A DNA stretch of 33,884 bases. Source: Cochliopodium minus (lineage: Eukaryota; Discosea; Himatismenida; Cochliopodiidae). The stretch is from the NCBI GenBank assembly GCA_024220525.1, contig JAMYWO010000150.1, positions 4,732 through 38,615 of the forward strand, read 5' to 3'. Shown one piece after another: positions 9,448 to 30,833 of this stretch; position 1 is the stretch's first letter; every line of letters starts with the position of its first letter. The position numbers were made by a program, and so were the translations under genes. A model generated the notes under the pieces. It was not told the DNA's origin. It saw only the letters and a program-made list of their open reading frames with translations, and did no database searches.

Positions 9448-11103
9448 ATGAATAAATTCAATTATAATAAAGATAAAAAACATTTGAATACAAAAATGGT
9501 GAGGATAAATGAGAAAGTGATATTTGGGTTGAAGAAATATAAAGAAAAATTCTTCCCATCAATAGAAGAGAATCTATATTTTTTATATATAGCAAAATAT
9601 AACGTTACCAAGCAAAATGTACTGAAAAATATGAACGAATTACAAATAAAAGTATTAGATGTGGGAAATAAAAAATATATGATACTATCCATCCTAAGAT
9701 TGGATGCAATGAAGAAGAAATTTAATATATTGGAGCAGGATTTCCAGAAGATGGGAAAAGAGTTTACATCTTTAAAAGGATGGTATACATATGTGAGAGA
9801 TAAGCTGGAAAATCAAATAGAATATACCAAAACATACTCATCAAATAATACATTCAAAAGCTGCTTCGTATCAAGAGATCTCAATATACTAAAAGAGAAC
9901 AACATTATGAATTTCTCCAATAATTTGACAAAAGATGATTATTTCGTGTATGGATCAAGGGACGATCAAAGGCTCATTAAATTCACCAAATTCAAAGAAG
10001 AAAGATATAAAATGTTCTTGAACAATATCAATCATAAAGAATGCATCAAATCTCCCGTCAAGATCAATTATGTCTCAGAAGAGAAAAGTGAAGTAGAACA
10101 AAAAATTTCTCCCAAAGAAATCCACTCCGATAAAAAAAGGACTATTAATTTGATTAATAGCAATAATGCGATCAATAAAAAGCCTAAAATCATATTATTG
10201 GATCCATTTCGTAAAATCCTTCCTATATCTGACAATGAATCTCATAAAGATAATAATATAAAACAAGTAAAACCTGTGGAGAATAAAAATGTCTTTGATT
10301 TCGATGAACCACTGCCTTACATCCCTGAATTGGAAGAAATATATCCCAAAATTGAAAATGGAATTAAAGAAGAAAAACTTCCATCTGATAATAATGTCAA
10401 TATCTCACAAGAAGTAGAAGAATGCGATGATATTTTCACATCAAACAAAAATGAAGAAAAAAAGAACAAGAAAAGTGAAGAAAATGCAAATAATATGGAT
10501 CCCATTGATCATGATAAACAGATACAGAAATGGAAACATAAAAACACTCCCAAGCCTCCTCCTCCTCAAATCGAGTCGATTTTGGTGGAATCATCTCGTG
10601 TATGCAAGTTCAACAAGACAGATCACAAAGCCATCTTCGATTTCGTCTTGAAGCAAAACAAGATCGCCATCCAAACACACAGCACCTCCCCCATAATAGA
10701 CATTTACTGGCAATGTAGAGGCCTTCCCATGTACTACAAGATCAAAAAAGAAAAAGAGTGTCTTATCATAGAGAACAAGAAGTTCCAATCCCTAGATCAA
10801 GTTATAGACAAACATATTGAGCCTATCAACACAAGAATCAATGAAGTTTTCAATCATTGTTACTTTGTCAACTCTAAAGAAGAGAAAGATGTAAACAGTT
10901 TCCTTTTGAACAACCCTTATGCTTTGTCCCTTGATGTCAAGAAGGGATATTTTCGAATCTGGCTCAAAGACAAAGATTCTCTCAATCTCAATTTTTGCAG
11001 GATCTCTGTTGATTCTTCCTCTTTTTATTTAAAGTTGGAAGATAACTTTCTCAAATTCGATAAGCTTTATTCTTTGATTTGTCATTTTTATAAACAAAAA
11101 TGA
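9448..11103 (+). CDS. tSH2-like protein A: unknown N-terminal domain, charged linker, Spt6-like tandem SH2 (intronless)
   Basis: Single-exon gene of 551 residues; a second ATG at 9496 is a possible alternative start. Three parts are visible. Residues about 20-195 form an N-terminal domain shared with the paralogues (FFPSIEENLYFLYI, GKEFTSLKGWYTYV, YFVYGSRDDQRL). Residues about 195-380 are a charged, Ser/Lys/Glu-rich linker. Residues about 384-551 resemble the tandem SH2 of Spt6: KKFQSLDQVIDKHIEPI plus NEVFNHCYF match Spt6 EEFEDLDEIVARYVQP plus DLLNHKYY, and CRISVDSSSFYLKLEDN matches the second SH2. In Spt6 this module binds the phosphorylated RNA polymerase II linker. Here the rest of Spt6 is absent. 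The first-SH2 position expected to hold the phosphate-binding Arg reads Q (AIQTHS). Function is unknown; a transcription-related scaffold role is only inference. Confidence 0.7.
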   Translation: MNKFNYNKDKKHLNTKMVRINEKVIFGLKKYKEKFFPSIEENLYFLYIAKYNVTKQNVLKNMNELQIKVLDVGNKKYMILSILRLDAMKKKFNILEQDFQKMGKEFTSLKGWYTYVRDKLENQIEYTKTYSSNNTFKSCFVSRDLNILKENNIMNFSNNLTKDDYFVYGSRDDQRLIKFTKFKEERYKMFLNNINHKECIKSPVKINYVSEEKSEVEQKISPKEIHSDKKRTINLINSNNAINKKPKIILLDPFRKILPISDNESHKDNNIKQVKPVENKNVFDFDEPLPYIPELEEIYPKIENGIKEEKLPSDNNVNISQEVEECDDIFTSNKNEEKKNKKSEENANNMDPIDHDKQIQKWKHKNTPKPPPPQIESILVESSRVCKFNKTDHKAIFDFVLKQNKIAIQTHSTSPIIDIYWQCRGLPMYYKIKKEKECLIIENKKFQSLDQVIDKHIEPINTRINEVFNHCYFVNSKEEKDVNSFLLNNPYALSLDVKKGYFRIWLKDKDSLNLNFCRISVDSSSFYLKLEDNFLKFDKLYSLICHFYKQK

Positions 11104-11339
11104 TTTTTTTTTTTTTTTCTTGTAAATTATTTTCAAAAAAAAAATCAATCAATAAAAATTTGAAAAAAAAAAATAAATATGTTTGTTTATTTTCAACATC
11201 TTTAATTATCATCACTCCAAAGAGGAATTCAAACTTTCTTTTTTTTTTTTATTTTACAATCTAATAATTTATAAAAAAAAAAATTCAAAACATCAAAACC
11301 CAAAGAACAATAATAAAAAATAAAAAAAAAATTCACAAA

Positions 11340-13163
11340 ATGAATGAAAAAAATTTGATTGAGGAAAATCTTTTTTGTTTGAAGCCATATAAGAATATAA
11401 CCTTCCCTGAGCTAAAATATACCACATATCTTTTGTTTATGATATCGGGGATTGGAATTAATTTTGATCTTTCCCAAATCAAAGAATTGGACATCAAAAG
11501 AATTTTTTATGATATTAACGACAAATCTTTTTATTATTTAATCTCATGCCTTGTAATACATCCGAAACAGAGAAAATTCAAGATGCTTGAAAATGATTAC
11601 AAAAAAGAAGGCAAAGAATTCAAAAGTATAAAGAATTGGATCGAACATTTGGAGAATATAACTAAAGAATTTCAAATGATCAAGTCTCACAATAGATCAA
11701 GCAAATTGAAAAACGTATTTGTTAATTATAATGAAAGAAAATTCGATATAACAAAAGTTTATGAAAGCTGTGCTGGATCAAGATTGAATCAAAATAACTT
11801 CTACTATGGATTGGAATCTGAGGACAAATTGGTTAATTTTAAAATCTTCAAAACAGAAAGGAAGAAGGAATTTAAAGAGATGATTGATAAAGGAAATATA
11901 CGTCAACTAAATATGATTCAGCTTCGAAAAAAGGTCAATCCCAAACTGAAAAAGCTAAATATTGGAAATGATTTGAAGAAAGAATCTGAAACAAAATTAA
12001 TTAATTCTAAAAAGAGAAAGAATGAACAGATTCAATCAGAAACTTTAACTTACCCCAGTGTAAAAAAGTACGTTTCGAAGAAGCCCAAGATACCCTCCCC
12101 AAACAAAGTTAAAGTACCTCCAATGATCTGTAAGTATATAGCTCCCCATGAGAAACAAATAGATTTCTGTCCAAAAGATAATCATGAAGTTGACGATAAA
12201 AGTGAAGATATGAAGATCCCTCAAAGTGTTGATCCCCTTTCCCTAAAAACATCTTTTGAAAGAATCTACGATGAGAACAAAAAAAAAGTGGAAGTAGAAG
12301 AAGATTTGGAGAAAATTTTAGAAGAAGAGGAGGATGAAGAAGAGAAAGAAGATCAGAAAGAAAACTTTCCACCTCTTTCCCAAATTGACGATGATAATCT
12401 TGATGAATCTACTTGGTCTTCTCAGAATTTTCAGGTCTTAACTGCTGATAAACAAGAATCTCCTTCCAGAATAGAGACCCCAAATATTGCTACAAGTCTT
12501 TCAGTCGAAATGGATGTACCTGAAGATCTAATTCCTCTTGGAGCAAACGATTCTAACACACTAAACAATGATCTCCCCATAAATGAAGAAATTCTTTTTC
12601 CTTTTGACTCTGAGAATGTTGTATTTTATGATCACAAAGCAAACCTAGAAATATTTGAAGATAAAATCAATGAAGGAAAGTTGGTGATTACATCTGATCA
12701 AGGAGGAAATGAATTTGATCTTTTTTGGAAAATCATGATTATTGTAAAAAACTTACCCAAAGTGTTTAGTTTCAACAGAAAGATCAAAATGGAAAACAAC
12801 AAGCTCACCATTGGATTAGACACAAATATTTATGATACCATAGATGATCTTATTTTGGGACATGTCACCAAAATAAACAATCTTGTAAATGATTTAAACA
12901 GAAAATTCATTGATAAAAGTGATCTCAAAGAAAAAATGAGCTTATTGGATGATCGAAAGTTGAATTTAAATTTCTTCATCTGCCCTCATCAAGATCACAT
13001 TGACAAGTTTGAAATTTGGGAAAAGAAAAATGGTGAATACTTCCACAAATCTTTTTACATCTCAAATGATTGCTATGTTTTTGAAGATCAAACTAATTTC
13101 CATGGATCCATGGTCTCTTTAGTTAGAGATTTTATGATTTCCAACAAAAATAATCTTTTTTAG
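11340..13163 (+). CDS. tSH2-like protein B: paralogue of A (intronless)
   Basis: Single-exon gene of 607 residues starting 236 bp after protein A on the same strand. The N-terminal domain (about 1-185) shares the A pattern: TFPELKYTTYLLFM, GKEFKSIKNWIEHL, NVFVNYN and FYYGLESEDKLVNF. The linker (about 190-420) has a basic part, then a strongly acidic Glu-rich part, then LSQIDDDNLDESTW. The tSH2-like module (about 423-607) includes [62 protein letters not shown] and VSLVRDF. From the LSQ...DLDE-TW linker to the C-terminus it is clearly homologous to the tail of the kinesin gene just downstream. By eye, about two thirds of the residues in the tSH2 part are identical. It was probably the source, or a sister copy, of that tail. 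Confidence 0.7.
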   Translation: MNEKNLIEENLFCLKPYKNITFPELKYTTYLLFMISGIGINFDLSQIKELDIKRIFYDINDKSFYYLISCLVIHPKQRKFKMLENDYKKEGKEFKSIKNWIEHLENITKEFQMIKSHNRSSKLKNVFVNYNERKFDITKVYESCAGSRLNQNNFYYGLESEDKLVNFKIFKTERKKEFKEMIDKGNIRQLNMIQLRKKVNPKLKKLNIGNDLKKESETKLINSKKRKNEQIQSETLTYPSVKKYVSKKPKIPSPNKVKVPPMICKYIAPHEKQIDFCPKDNHEVDDKSEDMKIPQSVDPLSLKTSFERIYDENKKKVEVEEDLEKILEEEEDEEEKEDQKENFPPLSQIDDDNLDESTWSSQNFQVLTADKQESPSRIETPNIATSLSVEMDVPEDLIPLGANDSNTLNNDLPINEEILFPFDSENVVFYDHKANLEIFEDKINEGKLVITSDQGGNEFDLFWKIMIIVKNLPKVFSFNRKIKMENNKLTIGLDTNIYDTIDDLILGHVTKINNLVNDLNRKFIDKSDLKEKMSLLDDRKLNLNFFICPHQDHIDKFEIWEKKNGEYFHKSFYISNDCYVFEDQTNFHGSMVSLVRDFMISNKNNLF

Positions 13164-13331
13164 ATCTTTTTTATTTGATTAGAGTGTTTTTTTCTTTTAT
13201 TTCTGAAACTAAAGTTTCTCTGAAAAAAAAATCATTTTCTAAAATCCAAAAATAAAATAAATAAAAAAAGAATATTCAAAAAAAATTGATTCAATTCTAA
13301 AAATTAGATTAAAATTTTGAAGTGAATTATC

Positions 13332-16308
13332 ATGTCTGATTGCAATGTGAGGTATTTTTAAGAGTAATATATCAATGGAAATCCAATAATTCTTTCAAAG
13401 GGTTATTTGCAGATTCAGACCTACAAATGAAAGGGAATTGAGGGAGGGATCTGATAAAAATCTTAAAATAGAATTTCCAGATCAAAGCACTGTTAATATA
13501 ATTGAAGAATCAAATAAACAACCTCAATCATTTACATTCGATAGGGTATTCAAATCAGATACCAAGCAGGTAAAAAAAATATATGAATAATAATCGTTAT
13601 TTTTCTCTGAAATAAAATTTTCATTTCTATTTGTAAAGAGAGACATATATAATTTGGCGGCAAGAGATAATATAAATGATGTGATAGAAGGATTCAATTC
13701 AACAATATTTGCTTATGGGCAAACAGGAACAGGTAAAAATTATTTTGAGAATAAATCGACCTATAATCGAATGAAATATAGTTTCATGATGATATGAAAT
13801 CAATCGTAATCATTTCTCATTCGATAAACTTTAAATTAAGGAAAATCATTCACTATGTTCGGTCCTAGCATCGATGAAGATGAATTATGCGGAATCATTC
13901 CGAGAGCCTGCAAACATATCTTTGAATATATCCAAACGGAAAAATCAGAGACAGAATTCATCATTAAATGTTCCTTCTTGGAGATCTATAAAGAAGAAAT
14001 CAAAGATCTTTTGAATCCATCTCCCAAAAAACTTAAGATAAGAGAATCATCATCCAACGGAGTTTGGGTAGAGGGATTAAAAGAATTGTTTGTCAAAAAC
14101 ATAGAGGAAATATTGGATATTATAAAATTTGGCGAAAAGTTCCGCTCAGTAACAAGCACCAACATGAACGAAGCTAGTTCTCGTTCTCACACTTTGTTTG
14201 TGCTTACACTCATTCAAAAATTGAAAGATGGTACTGTGAAAACAGGAAAGTTGAATTTTGCTGATTTAGCTGGATCAGAAAAAGTAAAAAAAATACAAAA
14301 CCAAAAAAAACAAAAAAAGAAAACAAAAAGAAAACAAATCAAACTAATTTTTTTTATTTCTTCACACTAATCTCACTATTTGATGCACATTATAATGTTC
14401 TTCAGACATATTTGATAGAATTTAAAAAACATAACTTTATGATTATAAAATCATTTTAAAGTCACACTTGGAGTAATAAAAATAAAAATCTTGTGGATGT
14501 TCAAATAAATGAACGTACACACATAGTCTTATCACCAAACAATATAAAATTTAAATAATATTGTAAAAATCAATGATTATGCTTTCAAAATAGATTTGTG
14601 CCCTTAAAATTTGTAAAAGAACGCAAGTATAATAATGAGTAATGTGGGAAATGATTGCGGATCAATAAAAATGAGATCATAAATATCAATTTTTTAAAAA
14701 ATATTTTTTAGGTTGGAAAAACAGGTTTGAAATTTAATTAAAAAAAAACAAAATCATATCCATTTTACTTAAAAAAATTTTTATTTAAAGGTGCTGTTGG
14801 TAATACTCTTGAAGAAACAAAGAAAATCAATCAATCTTTGTCTGCTTTGGGAAATTGTATCAATAGTCTTACCAAAGATTCAAAGTCTCACATTCCCTAC
14901 AGAGATTCAAAACTAACATTGTAAATAAAATTTTTGTATATTTTTATTGTTTTTTATTTTTTTGAAATATTTTTCATTCATTTATTTCATTTATTTTAAT
15001 TGTTTTTATTATTTTATTTTTGAAATGTTTATCATTTTTATTTTAATTTTTTGATTATAATTGTTTTTGTTATTTTTTTTTAAAAAACATCATATTTTTA
15101 ATAAAAATAGTATTTTGCGTGATAGTTTGGGTGGTAACACAAAAACTACTTTGTTGGTTGCTTGCTCTCCTCATCCATTCAATTTACAAGAAACTATTTC
15201 TACGTTGAGGTTTGCTTCGAGAGCGAAATCAATAAAAAACACCGTGATTGTAAATTCGAAAAAGAGTACAGAGGATTTGGAGGATACCATCAAAATTCTT
15301 TTGGAGGAAATGGATCAGCTTAAGTCATATATTAAACACCTTGAAAAAGGTGCTACTAAAGAAAAACCAGAAGAACTCTTTTCATGTGAGACAAACGGAG
15401 TTAAAAAAGCTTTGGATGAAAAAACAATGGAATCCTTTGACTTTTCTCCTGTTCTTTTAACTCTAAGAAAAAAAATAATTGAGGAAATGAATGAAGAATC
15501 CAAAGAAGATTCTGACAAAATTTTGGAAGGAGGAATTGTAAAAGATAAAAATAATCATGATTGTCCACTTCTTTCTCAAACTTATGATAGTGATCTTGAT
15601 GAAACAACTTGGTTTTTTCATGATTTTATAGTCAAAACAGCTAAGAAACAACAATCTCTTTCACATAAAGAATCTTCCTGTACAATGGAAAGCTTTTCTG
15701 TGGAAACGTATGTACCTGAGGATTTCACAACTCTTGAAATGGATTCCAACCTACCAAAAGAAATGAATTCTCCTTTTGATTCTGAGAATGTAGTTTTTTA
15801 TGATTATAAAGCTAATTTTGAGATATTTGAAGATATTATCAATCAAGGAAAGTTAGTAATTACATCTGATAAAGGAAGAAAGGATTTTGATCTTTTTTGG
15901 AAATTCAAAGAAATTAATTTCAACAGAAAATTTAATTTGGAGAATGATCAGCTTACCATTGGTCTTGACTCCCAAATCTACTACAACATTGATGATTTAA
16001 TTGATGGACATGTCATCAAAATCAACGATCTTATCAAGAATGCAGGTGAAAATTTCAAAATTACAAGTGATCTCAACGAAAAAAGGGAATTGTTGGACAA
16101 TCGCAAGAAAAGAATTTATTTAATCTGCCCTCATCAAGATCATATTGATAAATATCAAATTTGGGAAAAGATTAATGGACAATACATCCACAAATCTTTT
16201 TATATCTCAAATGAATGCTATGTATTCGAAGATCAATCAAGTTCTTATGATTCAATGGTCTCTTTAGTTAGAGATTTTAAGAATTCAAATAAAACAAATG
16301 TATTTTGA
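13332..16308 (+). CDS. Kinesin motor fused to an Spt6-like tandem SH2 tail (7 exons)
   Basis: Exons are 13332-13351, 13413-13569, 13639-13732, 13841-14283, 14712-14724, 14791-14920 and 15111-16308, giving 684 residues. The motor (about 1-330) has RFRPTNERE, the P-loop GQTGTGKS split by an intron, NEASSRSHT (switch I), [12 protein letters not shown] (switch II region, completed by a 13-nt exon), [10 protein letters not shown] and YRDSKLT...ILRDSLGGN. It resembles kinesin-1-type motors, and TIKNTV-like IKNTVIVN leads into a short coiled coil ([19 protein letters not shown]). After a charged linker, residues about 510-684 are a tSH2-like module close to that of protein B ([48 protein letters not shown]). 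Linker and module all lie in the last exon, so exon 7 alone spans the fusion; the frame from motor to tail is continuous. Cargo or partner is unknown. I know of no described kinesin with this tail. Confidence 0.8.
14284..14711 (+). other. Long kinesin intron with composition unlike neighbouring introns
   Basis: At 428 bp this is the longest intron in the kinesin gene. Its middle part (about 14360-14690) is mixed sequence rather than T homopolymers. It has no open frame of note. I looked for C/D or H/ACA snoRNA boxes and found no convincing set. Confidence 0.5.
14712..14724 (+). other. 13-nt microexon of the kinesin gene
   Basis: The flanking exon ends in ...GSEK and the next begins in ...AVGNTLEE. 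Kinesins require a V-(S/G)-K-T-G segment between them. The 13 bases flanked by AG and GT supply exactly V-G-K-T and the first base of G, restoring phase. The match to family sequence makes it secure. Confidence 0.9.
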
Positions 16309-16503
16309 AATAAGAATTAAATTTTTATTTGTTTTTGTTTGATTTCAAAATTACAAATTGATATTCTCAGAAAAAAAGAAATTATAAATAAATTAAAAAA
16401 TAATTAAATAAATAAAATAAAATAAAATAAAAAAAATTTAAAAAATTCAAAACATTTTTGAAAAGAAATAAAAAAAAAAGAAAATTATTCATTTTTATTT
16501 TGA

Positions 16504-17853
16504 ATGAATCAATCTAAATTTTGCGTCATTAATCCACAATGGGTAAATCAGAAACAAATAATGGAACAGAAAACATTCAAAGGAAAAAGATTCCCAGAAA
16601 ATGAAAGAGCAATCTACTTTTTTTATCTTTGTTCAAAAAATCAAAAGGATAAACTAGTATTATCAAACAAGGATCTAGATCCAATTGCAATCGGAAAACA
16701 TTTTTTAATGTCCTCTTTATGTTTTGATTATGTGAAAAAAGAATATATCTTGATAAAAGAAGGAAAGATTTATGAAAGCACCAAATTTATAACATTGACA
16801 AAATGGTTCAGATATATAAATCCACAAAATGATAATTTGCACAACATGGCAAAAACATGTTTTTATGGATATGATCTTGCTGTTCTAGATCACGAAGAAC
16901 TTTCCTTTGACAACAAGTTAAGTTCTAGTAAATATGTCTTTGGAACAAAAGAAAATGAGAGGTTGGGATCATGGTTTTCTTTCAAAAGAGAAAGGATAGA
17001 AATTTACAATATGATGGTTGATTTGGATCCTAGTCTCGGTTCATTAAAAGAAAAGAGTGAGAGAAAAAAAAAACAAATAGAGGAAAAAGAATACATTGAG
17101 GAGGAAACAAAAGAGGAAAGCAAAAAAAGATTAAGAGAAGCAATNNNNNNNNNNNNNNNNNNNNNNNNNNNNNNNNNNNNNNNNNNNNNNNNNNNNNNNN
17201 NNNNNNNNNNNNNNNNNNNNNNNNNNNNNNNNNNNNNNNNNNNNGAAAAAGAAGAACAAGAACAAGAAAAGAAGAGGAAAATTACAAGGACAGATTCCTT
17301 TTATTGTTTCTCCGAAAAGAATTTCCCTCCTTCAAATCTTTCAAACAGAATTTTCCGCGTTGATCAAAATACTCATTCCAAAGATGTTTTCAACTTGATC
17401 AAAGATACCACCAATAAAATAGGAGTCAAAGAGATAGGCAACCATTATGAGATTTTTTGGCTCTATGACAATCCACTCATTGGGTTTCCATTGAAATATT
17501 TCAGAGAAATAATTTTGAAGGATGGTTTGTTTACTGTCGGAGGAGCAAAATACAAAGATTTTGATCACTTATTGGATTATTTCGTCTTTCCAATCAAAAA
17601 AAAAATCGATGAGATTGTCAACCATAAACATTTTAGTCTTTCAAGTGAAGAAGGACACATCAAAAACTTGCTTAGTGGGGAAGAAGATTTACAATTCATT
17701 GTCACCATTTTTGAACCAGACTTTAAGATATGGACCCTGGACAAGAAAAAAAACTTAAAATGGAAGAAATTCAAAGTCACACCACATCATTTCTACTACA
17801 ACAGAAAAACCTACCCGAACTTAACCTGTGTTTACATTGGATCGAAAGATTAA
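16504..17853 (+). CDS. tSH2-like protein C: paralogue of A and B, interrupted by an assembly gap
   Basis: Open frame from the ATG at 16504 to a stop at 17853, with 100 Ns inside the linker. The N-terminal domain matches A and B (RFPENERAIYFFYL, then FITLTKWFRYI, then YVFGTKENERLGSWFSFKRER). The linker is Lys/Glu-rich on both sides of the gap. The tSH2-like module at the end reads KDFDHLLDYFVFPIKKKI plus DEIVNHKHF and FKVTPHHFYYNRKTYPNL, the closest of the three to Spt6 (DLDEIVARYVQP, LLNHKYY, VTVTPEGFRYRGQIFP). The gap length is a placeholder, so the apparent continuity of frame is not proof, and the true length may differ from the nominal 449 residues. It converges on the methyltransferase gene, 88 bp away. 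Confidence 0.65.
   Translation: MNQSKFCVINPQWVNQKQIMEQKTFKGKRFPENERAIYFFYLCSKNQKDKLVLSNKDLDPIAIGKHFLMSSLCFDYVKKEYILIKEGKIYESTKFITLTKWFRYINPQNDNLHNMAKTCFYGYDLAVLDHEELSFDNKLSSSKYVFGTKENERLGSWFSFKRERIEIYNMMVDLDPSLGSLKEKSERKKKQIEEKEYIEEETKEESKKRLREAXXXXXXXXXXXXXXXXXXXXXXXXXXXXXXXXXXEKEEQEQEKKRKITRTDSFYCFSEKNFPPSNLSNRIFRVDQNTHSKDVFNLIKDTTNKIGVKEIGNHYEIFWLYDNPLIGFPLKYFREIILKDGLFTVGGAKYKDFDHLLDYFVFPIKKKIDEIVNHKHFSLSSEEGHIKNLLSGEEDLQFIVTIFEPDFKIWTLDKKKNLKWKKFKVTPHHFYYNRKTYPNLTCVYIGSKD
17145..17244. other. Assembly gap of exactly 100 N
   Basis: One hundred Ns lie within a purine-rich Lys/Glu-coding tract. The round number suggests a fixed scaffold placeholder. The tract is repetitive on both sides, which probably broke the assembly. 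Confidence 0.95.

Positions 17854-28806: not shown

Positions 28807-30833
<2,027 letters not shown>

Follow-up and report, generated by a model that had tools for sequence, protein, structure and literature searches.

A predicted kinesin of Cochliopodium minus in which a kinesin-1-like motor is joined in frame to a tail remotely related to the Spt6 tandem SH2 module

The window analyzed here, the whole stretch of 33,884 nucleotides, is AT-rich, contains spliceosomal introns and corresponds to bases 4732-38615 of contig C150 in the draft genome of Cochliopodium minus (44.65 Mb in 598 contigs). Positions 13332-16308 of its plus strand contain a predicted fusion kinesin gene that runs from ATG to stop through 7 exons and 6 GT..AG introns (61, 69, 108, 428, 66 and 190 nt, in order) and encodes 684 amino acids, in agreement with the extent given in the first-pass annotation of this DNA. 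The exons were first placed by motif (splice signals), and a separate spliced alignment with an N. crassa kinesin heavy-chain query placed the five introns from exon 2 to exon 7 at identical boundaries. This alignment starts just inside exon 2, leaving exon 1 and intron 1 outside its cover; these two are based on the splice signals and on a first exon of equal length (20 nt) in another kinesin of the same genome, C517. The features of the gene are the following.

13332..13351, plus strand: exon 1 of the fusion kinesin, with the ATG (GT..AG model; 20-nt first exon also in C517)
13413..13569, plus strand: exon 2 (motif model and N. crassa spliced alignment)
13639..13732, plus strand: exon 3, the end of which falls within the P-loop, split as GQTGTG/KS (motif model and N. 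crassa spliced alignment)
13841..14283, plus strand: exon 4, with switch I SSRSH and switch II DLAGSE (motif model and N. crassa spliced alignment)
14284..14711, plus strand: intron 4, 428 nt, compared with 53 nt in the parent C517 (gene model and comparison with C517)
14712..14724, plus strand: exon 5, a micro-exon of 13 nt common to C517 (motif model and N. crassa spliced alignment)
14791..14920, plus strand: exon 6 (motif model and N. crassa spliced alignment)
15111..16308, plus strand: exon 7, with the motor end, neck linker, neck coil, acidic linker, SH2_2-like tail and stop (single open frame)
15277..15348, plus strand: short neck coiled coil, amino acids 342-365 (heptad layout; final stretch common to the C517 kinesin)
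15351..15502, plus strand: interval with the fusion junction (P0002 protein match from 15415, DNA match from 15503)
15415..16305, plus strand: region from the 3' half of the neighbor gene P0002 (amino acids 290-607 of P0002; tblastn, 57% identity, E 3.5e-80)
15877..16284, plus strand: SH2_2 (Spt6 tandem SH2)-like stretch, amino acids 542-677; in the aligned segment, shortly before this stretch, Thr stands in place of the beta-B5 Arg of Spt6

The predicted protein consists of a complete kinesin motor, a short neck coil, a linker and an SH2_2-like tail, all in one frame over the join. The last exon is free of stops for 398 codons, from the motor into the tail, compared with a maximum of 126 in 2000 base shuffles of exon 7, so that the earlier observation that the motor reads in frame into the tail is upheld. 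At the level of the gene model, the joining of a kinesin motor in frame to an SH2_2-like tail is confirmed.

The motor matches PF00225 over amino acids 7-327 (Pfam; 377.6 bits, E 5.8e-113), and the GQTGTGKS, SSRSH and DLAGSE motifs are all found, which bears out the first description of an intact motor; the complete domain, P-loop, switch I and switch II that characterize a motor of the kinesin superfamily are all present. Of 60 motor columns on which 13 or more of 15 other kinesin sequences concur, the fusion protein matches 59 and departs at one, with S90T in the P-loop. The neck includes the stretch KNTVIVN, which we take to be neck-linker-like, and a coil with seven hydrophobic positions at regular spacing (amino acids 342-363). 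Among solved structures, the best matches of the motor are kinesin-1 heavy chains (KHC; N. crassa 1goj, E 4.3e-104). Kinesin matches are found on at least 15 contigs of the genome, and 14 kinesin loci besides the fusion were modeled; the models of distant loci are rough, with some doubtful end exons, and one further weak place, on C145, was left out. In the resulting tree, which includes one outside reference and these rough gene models, the fusion, C517 and a further kinesin, C99, group with KHC and the C87 kinesin (local support 0.993), C87 being the closer KHC match in this genome (863 vs 789 for the fusion, with the same N. crassa query). Kinesin-1 heavy chains possess a long coiled-coil stalk and a conserved KHC tail. 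The fusion resembles the fungal and animal KHC in its complete motor, neck-linker-like stretch and short neck coil but lacks the long stalk and the KHC tail, in place of which it has the linker and the SH2_2-like module; beyond 15350 it is no longer homologous to its coiled-coil parent and is P0002-like.

The nearest relative of the motor is the C517 kinesin (87.1% amino acid identity over 365 codons, dS 0.547, dN 0.072, dN/dS 0.132). All six introns of the fusion gene, at coding positions 20, 177, 271, 714, 727 and 857, are also present in C517, which has one extra intron, at coding position 208. Past the neck, C517 continues in a long last exon that looks coiled-coil by eye, and C99, which is 75% identical to the fusion across motor and neck, likewise goes into coiled-coil-looking sequence, unlike the fusion; neither C517 nor C99 is among the six SH2_2 matches in the genome. 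At 270 codons with an equal residue in all three genes, silent states are shared by the fusion and C517 in 77 cases, by the fusion and C99 in 29, and by C517 and C99 in 21. The pairing of the fusion with C517 is backed by these silent sites and by the introns, though the protein tree alone leaves it unsettled (FastTree local support just 0.008). A BLAST match to C517 upstream of the ATG was dropped because it barely exceeds the shuffles (47 vs 44 for the best shuffle), and homology is claimed only from the start codon onward. This comparison of sequences identifies the predicted motor and neck as a DNA-level duplicate, with introns kept, of the coiled-coil, kinesin-1-like C517 kinesin.

A tandem cluster of four SH2_2-like genes occupies positions 9448-17853 of the window, with the following members besides the fusion.

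9448..11103, plus strand: P0001, cluster member, 551 amino acids (SH2_2, 37.8 bits)
11340..13163, plus strand: P0002, single-frame paralogue of the tail, 607 amino acids, with an N-terminal region and an SH2_2-like C-terminus
16504..17853, plus strand: P0003, cluster member (SH2_2, 28.6 bits; model crosses a 100-N gap)

An assembly gap of exactly 100 N (17145-17244) lies within P0003, so that the model of this gene over the gap is provisional. The homology of the tail to its neighbors, proposed in the first-pass annotation, is substantiated by the match to the 3' half of P0002 listed above, and at the DNA level the tail and P0002 are 70% identical from 15503 to beyond the stop. The SH2-like part is the more conserved (67% amino acid identity, dN/dS 0.21, vs 44% and 0.49 for the linker). 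The overall dS between tail and P0002 is 0.93, above the 0.55 of the motor vs C517, suggesting that the tail duplication may predate the fusion and that some of the constraint on the tail was perhaps already in place before the motor was joined to it. The genome yielded no other tail copy. The downstream flanks of the fusion and P0002 show no excess similarity (66 vs 67 for the best shuffle); the upstream regions score 58 vs 45 for the best shuffle but are AT-rich, and this similarity is not relied on. P0001, P0002 and P0003 have in common an N-terminal region that has no Pfam match and was found nowhere else in the genome; the region of P0001 matches those of both P0002 and P0003, and that of P0003 matches P0001 but yields no match to P0002 at E values up to 1. 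The presence of this region in P0001-P0003 and its absence from the fusion suggest that the kinesin part replaced it and that the fusion is the derived form; the reverse derivation, of P0002 from the fusion, is ruled out on the same grounds.

At the DNA level, the fusion is homologous to C517 as far as 15350 (after ...YIKHLEK), and the P0002 DNA match starts at 15503, which places the junction between these positions; the DNA at 15330-15520 scores 26 against P0002, compared with 31 for shuffles. What had been noted as a fusion can be traced to two genes, namely the C517 motor and the 3' half of P0002, and both putative parents are still present in the same genome as the fusion.

PF14633 (SH2_2) scores 18.9 bits on the whole fusion protein and 23.7 bits (E 3.6e-5) on the tail segment, so that the tail falls below the Pfam curated cut-off of 27 bits. 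Two of the three neighbors, P0001 and P0003, exceed this cut-off; full-length P0002 has no SH2_2 match in the Pfam scan. When segments are used, all four cluster members match PF14633 at E values up to 10, the best being 9.8e-11. A profile of the four members, built without Spt6, retrieves 13 distinct Spt6 sequences first among PDB sequences (E 2.5e-5 to 0.076), followed by five others at E values of 0.8 or more. The tail itself scores 12.1 against a profile of Spt6 only, 29.0 against Spt6 with P0001 and P0003, and 9.1 against P0001 and P0003 alone, compared with 8.4, 12.2 and 8.7, respectively, for the best of 2000 shuffles, the last being a narrow excess. The Spt6-type assignment is weak on the tail alone and is backed by the scores of the neighbors and by the four-member profile. 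Together, these comparisons indicate that the predicted tail and the tandem SH2 of Spt6 have a common ancestry that is real but remote, and the Spt6-type, tandem-SH2-like origin first suggested for the tail stands, given that the four-member profile retrieves Spt6 ahead of all else. In Spt6, the tandem SH2 is preceded by the YqgF, HhH and S1 core domains. The likeness of the fusion to Spt6 is in the tail, a remote homologue of the C-terminal tandem SH2 of that protein; YqgF, HhH and S1 have no Pfam match in the fusion at E values up to 10. A separate Spt6-type match is found elsewhere in the genome (C233, 213.3 bits).

The fusion and C517 differ in the pace of change of their motors. With C99 as the outgroup and at sites where two of the three sequences agree, 27 residue changes are assigned to the fusion branch and 2 to the C517 branch, compared with 21 and 29 silent codon changes (Fisher p 3.8e-6). 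Counted by nucleotide, the contrast is milder (replacement 33 vs 13, silent 31 vs 35; Fisher p 0.012), with 36 differences that cannot be polarised. At the 27 residue sites of the fusion branch, the commoner residue among 13 other sequences is that of the fusion in 9 cases and that of the parent in 17, with 1 tied. The uncorrected replacement-to-silent ratio is about 0.28 on the fusion motor branch and 0.10 on the C517 branch. The fusion motor is evolving more quickly than that of C517, to an extent that varies with the way of counting, yet under constraint.

This acceleration, together with the loose linker (dN/dS 0.49), is what would be expected if duplication had left behind a fusion gene that is dispensable or in decay and serves no selected function. 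We consider such a history unlikely: the gene has no stop or frameshift, GT..AG ends at 6 of 6 introns and nearly all conserved motor columns (59/60), and the fusion-branch ratio is well under 1. Under simulated neutral change at 0.27 substitutions per site for the motor and 0.45 for the tail (approximately half of the pairwise dS), no copy out of 2000 kept an open frame in either case, and even at 0.1 per site no motor and only 6 tails, out of 2000 each, stayed open. Neutral change leaves no open frames at the observed divergence, which argues against an unconstrained history, even though the simulations are compatible with selection prior to the fusion or with a recent loss of function. On the present alignments, the predicted motor and tail each read open, and most of their differences from the parent genes are silent.

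The first-pass annotation had suggested that the tail is a fold of the phosphopeptide-binding type, and here the sequence of the phosphate pockets is informative. In yeast Spt6, the phosphate bound by the N-terminal SH2 is coordinated by R1282 (beta-B5), and the phosphoserine-binding residues of the C-terminal SH2 are K1355, Y1381 and K1435 (PMC5599234). By alignment, the beta-B5 position is Thr in the tail and P0002, Gln in P0001 and Gly in P0003, whereas the Arg is kept in the genome's own Spt6 (C233, IRPSS) and in human Spt6. The phosphate-binding Arg is absent from four of the four cluster members, so that canonical phosphopeptide binding by the tail is unlikely; the suggested property is not supported for the tail in its canonical form, and the tail as a canonical phosphopeptide reader is ruled out. 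A phosphorylation-gated switch for cargo or autoinhibition could nevertheless operate through the second, phosphoserine pocket of the C-terminal SH2. In that pocket, which was located by residue numbering with an offset of two for the Tyr and none for the Lys, the tail aligns Tyr at Y1381 and Arg at K1435, and the 34 matches to the canonical SH2 family in the genome indicate that phosphotyrosine signaling is probably present. Apart from the loss of the beta-B5 Arg to Thr, this proposal has to contend with Glu or Asn aligned near K1355, where the tail has no basic residue, albeit in a loop of uncertain alignment, and with Phe at the Y1381 position in P0002. Its probability is low, slightly below that of decay. 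The 34 canonical SH2 domain (PF00017) matches are all above the cut-off, although an intron-split domain may count twice, and suggest substantial phosphotyrosine signaling in this protist; one of them, in C104, lies downstream of an exon that resembles a protein kinase by eye.

An equally improbable alternative is that the locus makes no fused protein, with motor and tail on separate transcripts or with a truncated motor resulting from retention of intron 4 or early polyadenylation. Intron 4 is much longer than its counterpart in C517 (428 vs 53 nt) and, if retained, would truncate the motor; translation of the tail by itself could begin at the in-frame ATG at 15310, and the neighboring SH2_2-like genes are single open frames of their own (P0003 over the gap). 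Such a tail-only product, however, would carry the kinesin neck coil at its N-terminus, the last exon is stop-free for 398 codons from motor to tail, and the exon ends of five introns are recovered by an outside query. A chimera of the assembly is conceivable in a draft genome of 598 contigs with a 100-N gap in the window (17145-17244) but is highly improbable: the frame is intact over the join, the gap lies elsewhere, and the blocks differ from their nearest relatives in the assembly by 16-24% (motor) and 30% (tail), which, in the absence of a further tail copy, would require two genes not seen elsewhere.

The interpretation we favor, with a probability of roughly 0.58, is that the gene encodes a young chimeric kinesin, a dimeric motor in which the parental stalk was swapped for an SH2-like protein-docking tail. 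In the sequence, the duplicated C517 motor and neck continue in frame into a copy of the 3' half of P0002, so that an acidic linker and a degenerate Spt6-type tandem-SH2 module stand where the parent has its coiled-coil stretch. The fusion protein would dimerize via its short neck coil and move on microtubules as its parent does. The SH2-like tail could provide a docking surface for whatever P0002-type proteins bind, in a contact that would not need the canonical phosphate-binding arginine, and the fusion would carry or anchor the docked partner along microtubules. Kinesin tails decide cargo. It may be, although we propose this with considerably less confidence than the chimeric origin, that the kinesin gained a cargo or anchoring specificity by exchanging a coiled-coil tail for a former Spt6-type tandem SH2 that has ceased to read phosphate at its canonical site, after which the motor changed faster to suit.

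In a survey of 1624 kinesins from 45 eukaryotes, 105 architectures are described, most of them in one organism only and 28 of the 105 in two or more genomes, and in 1300 of the 1624 kinesins no domain is recognised besides the motor (Wickstead et al. 2010, PMC2867816). Because most of the surveyed kinesins have no recognisable non-motor domain, the rise of new tails is rarely seen directly. In the present case, the motor parent, the tail parent and the putative chimera are found in one genome, with the junction, the introns and the branch-specific changes all readable; given that both parents persist, the steps by which a new motor arose can be retraced one at a time. The fusion is also an apparent case of an Spt6-type tandem SH2 reused outside Spt6 and, within the small cluster to which it belongs, of this module declining in its role of reading phosphate.

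Since one-organism architectures are common in that survey, the fusion is taken as an architecture of a known kind; 'SH2' has no occurrences in the main text of the survey (PMC2867816). In the text of PMC13289920, 'kinesin' does not occur and 'SH2' occurs once, in the references. Among titles and the beginnings of abstracts in the open-access literature, we found no described kinesin with an Spt6-type SH2 tail, which agrees with the first-pass annotation, to which no described kinesin of this form was known. The related claim of a new kinesin architecture holds to the extent that no such kinesin was found there and is tempered by the commonness of one-organism architectures in the survey (PMC2867816). 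Searches for relatives gave 196, 9 and 3 pattern matches among viral contigs (viral_contigs), none confirmed, and 23, none confirmed, in genome_contigs, which covers bacteria and archaea only; neither set has much bearing on other protists.

Other genes in the window include an ORF at 1457-2686; it opens with a C2 domain of the PTEN type (48.1 bits), after which comes a long stretch rich in Ser, Pro and Lys. At 28990-30833, on the minus strand, two ORFs match the two ends of UTP-glucose-1-phosphate uridylyltransferase and are probably exons of one gene.
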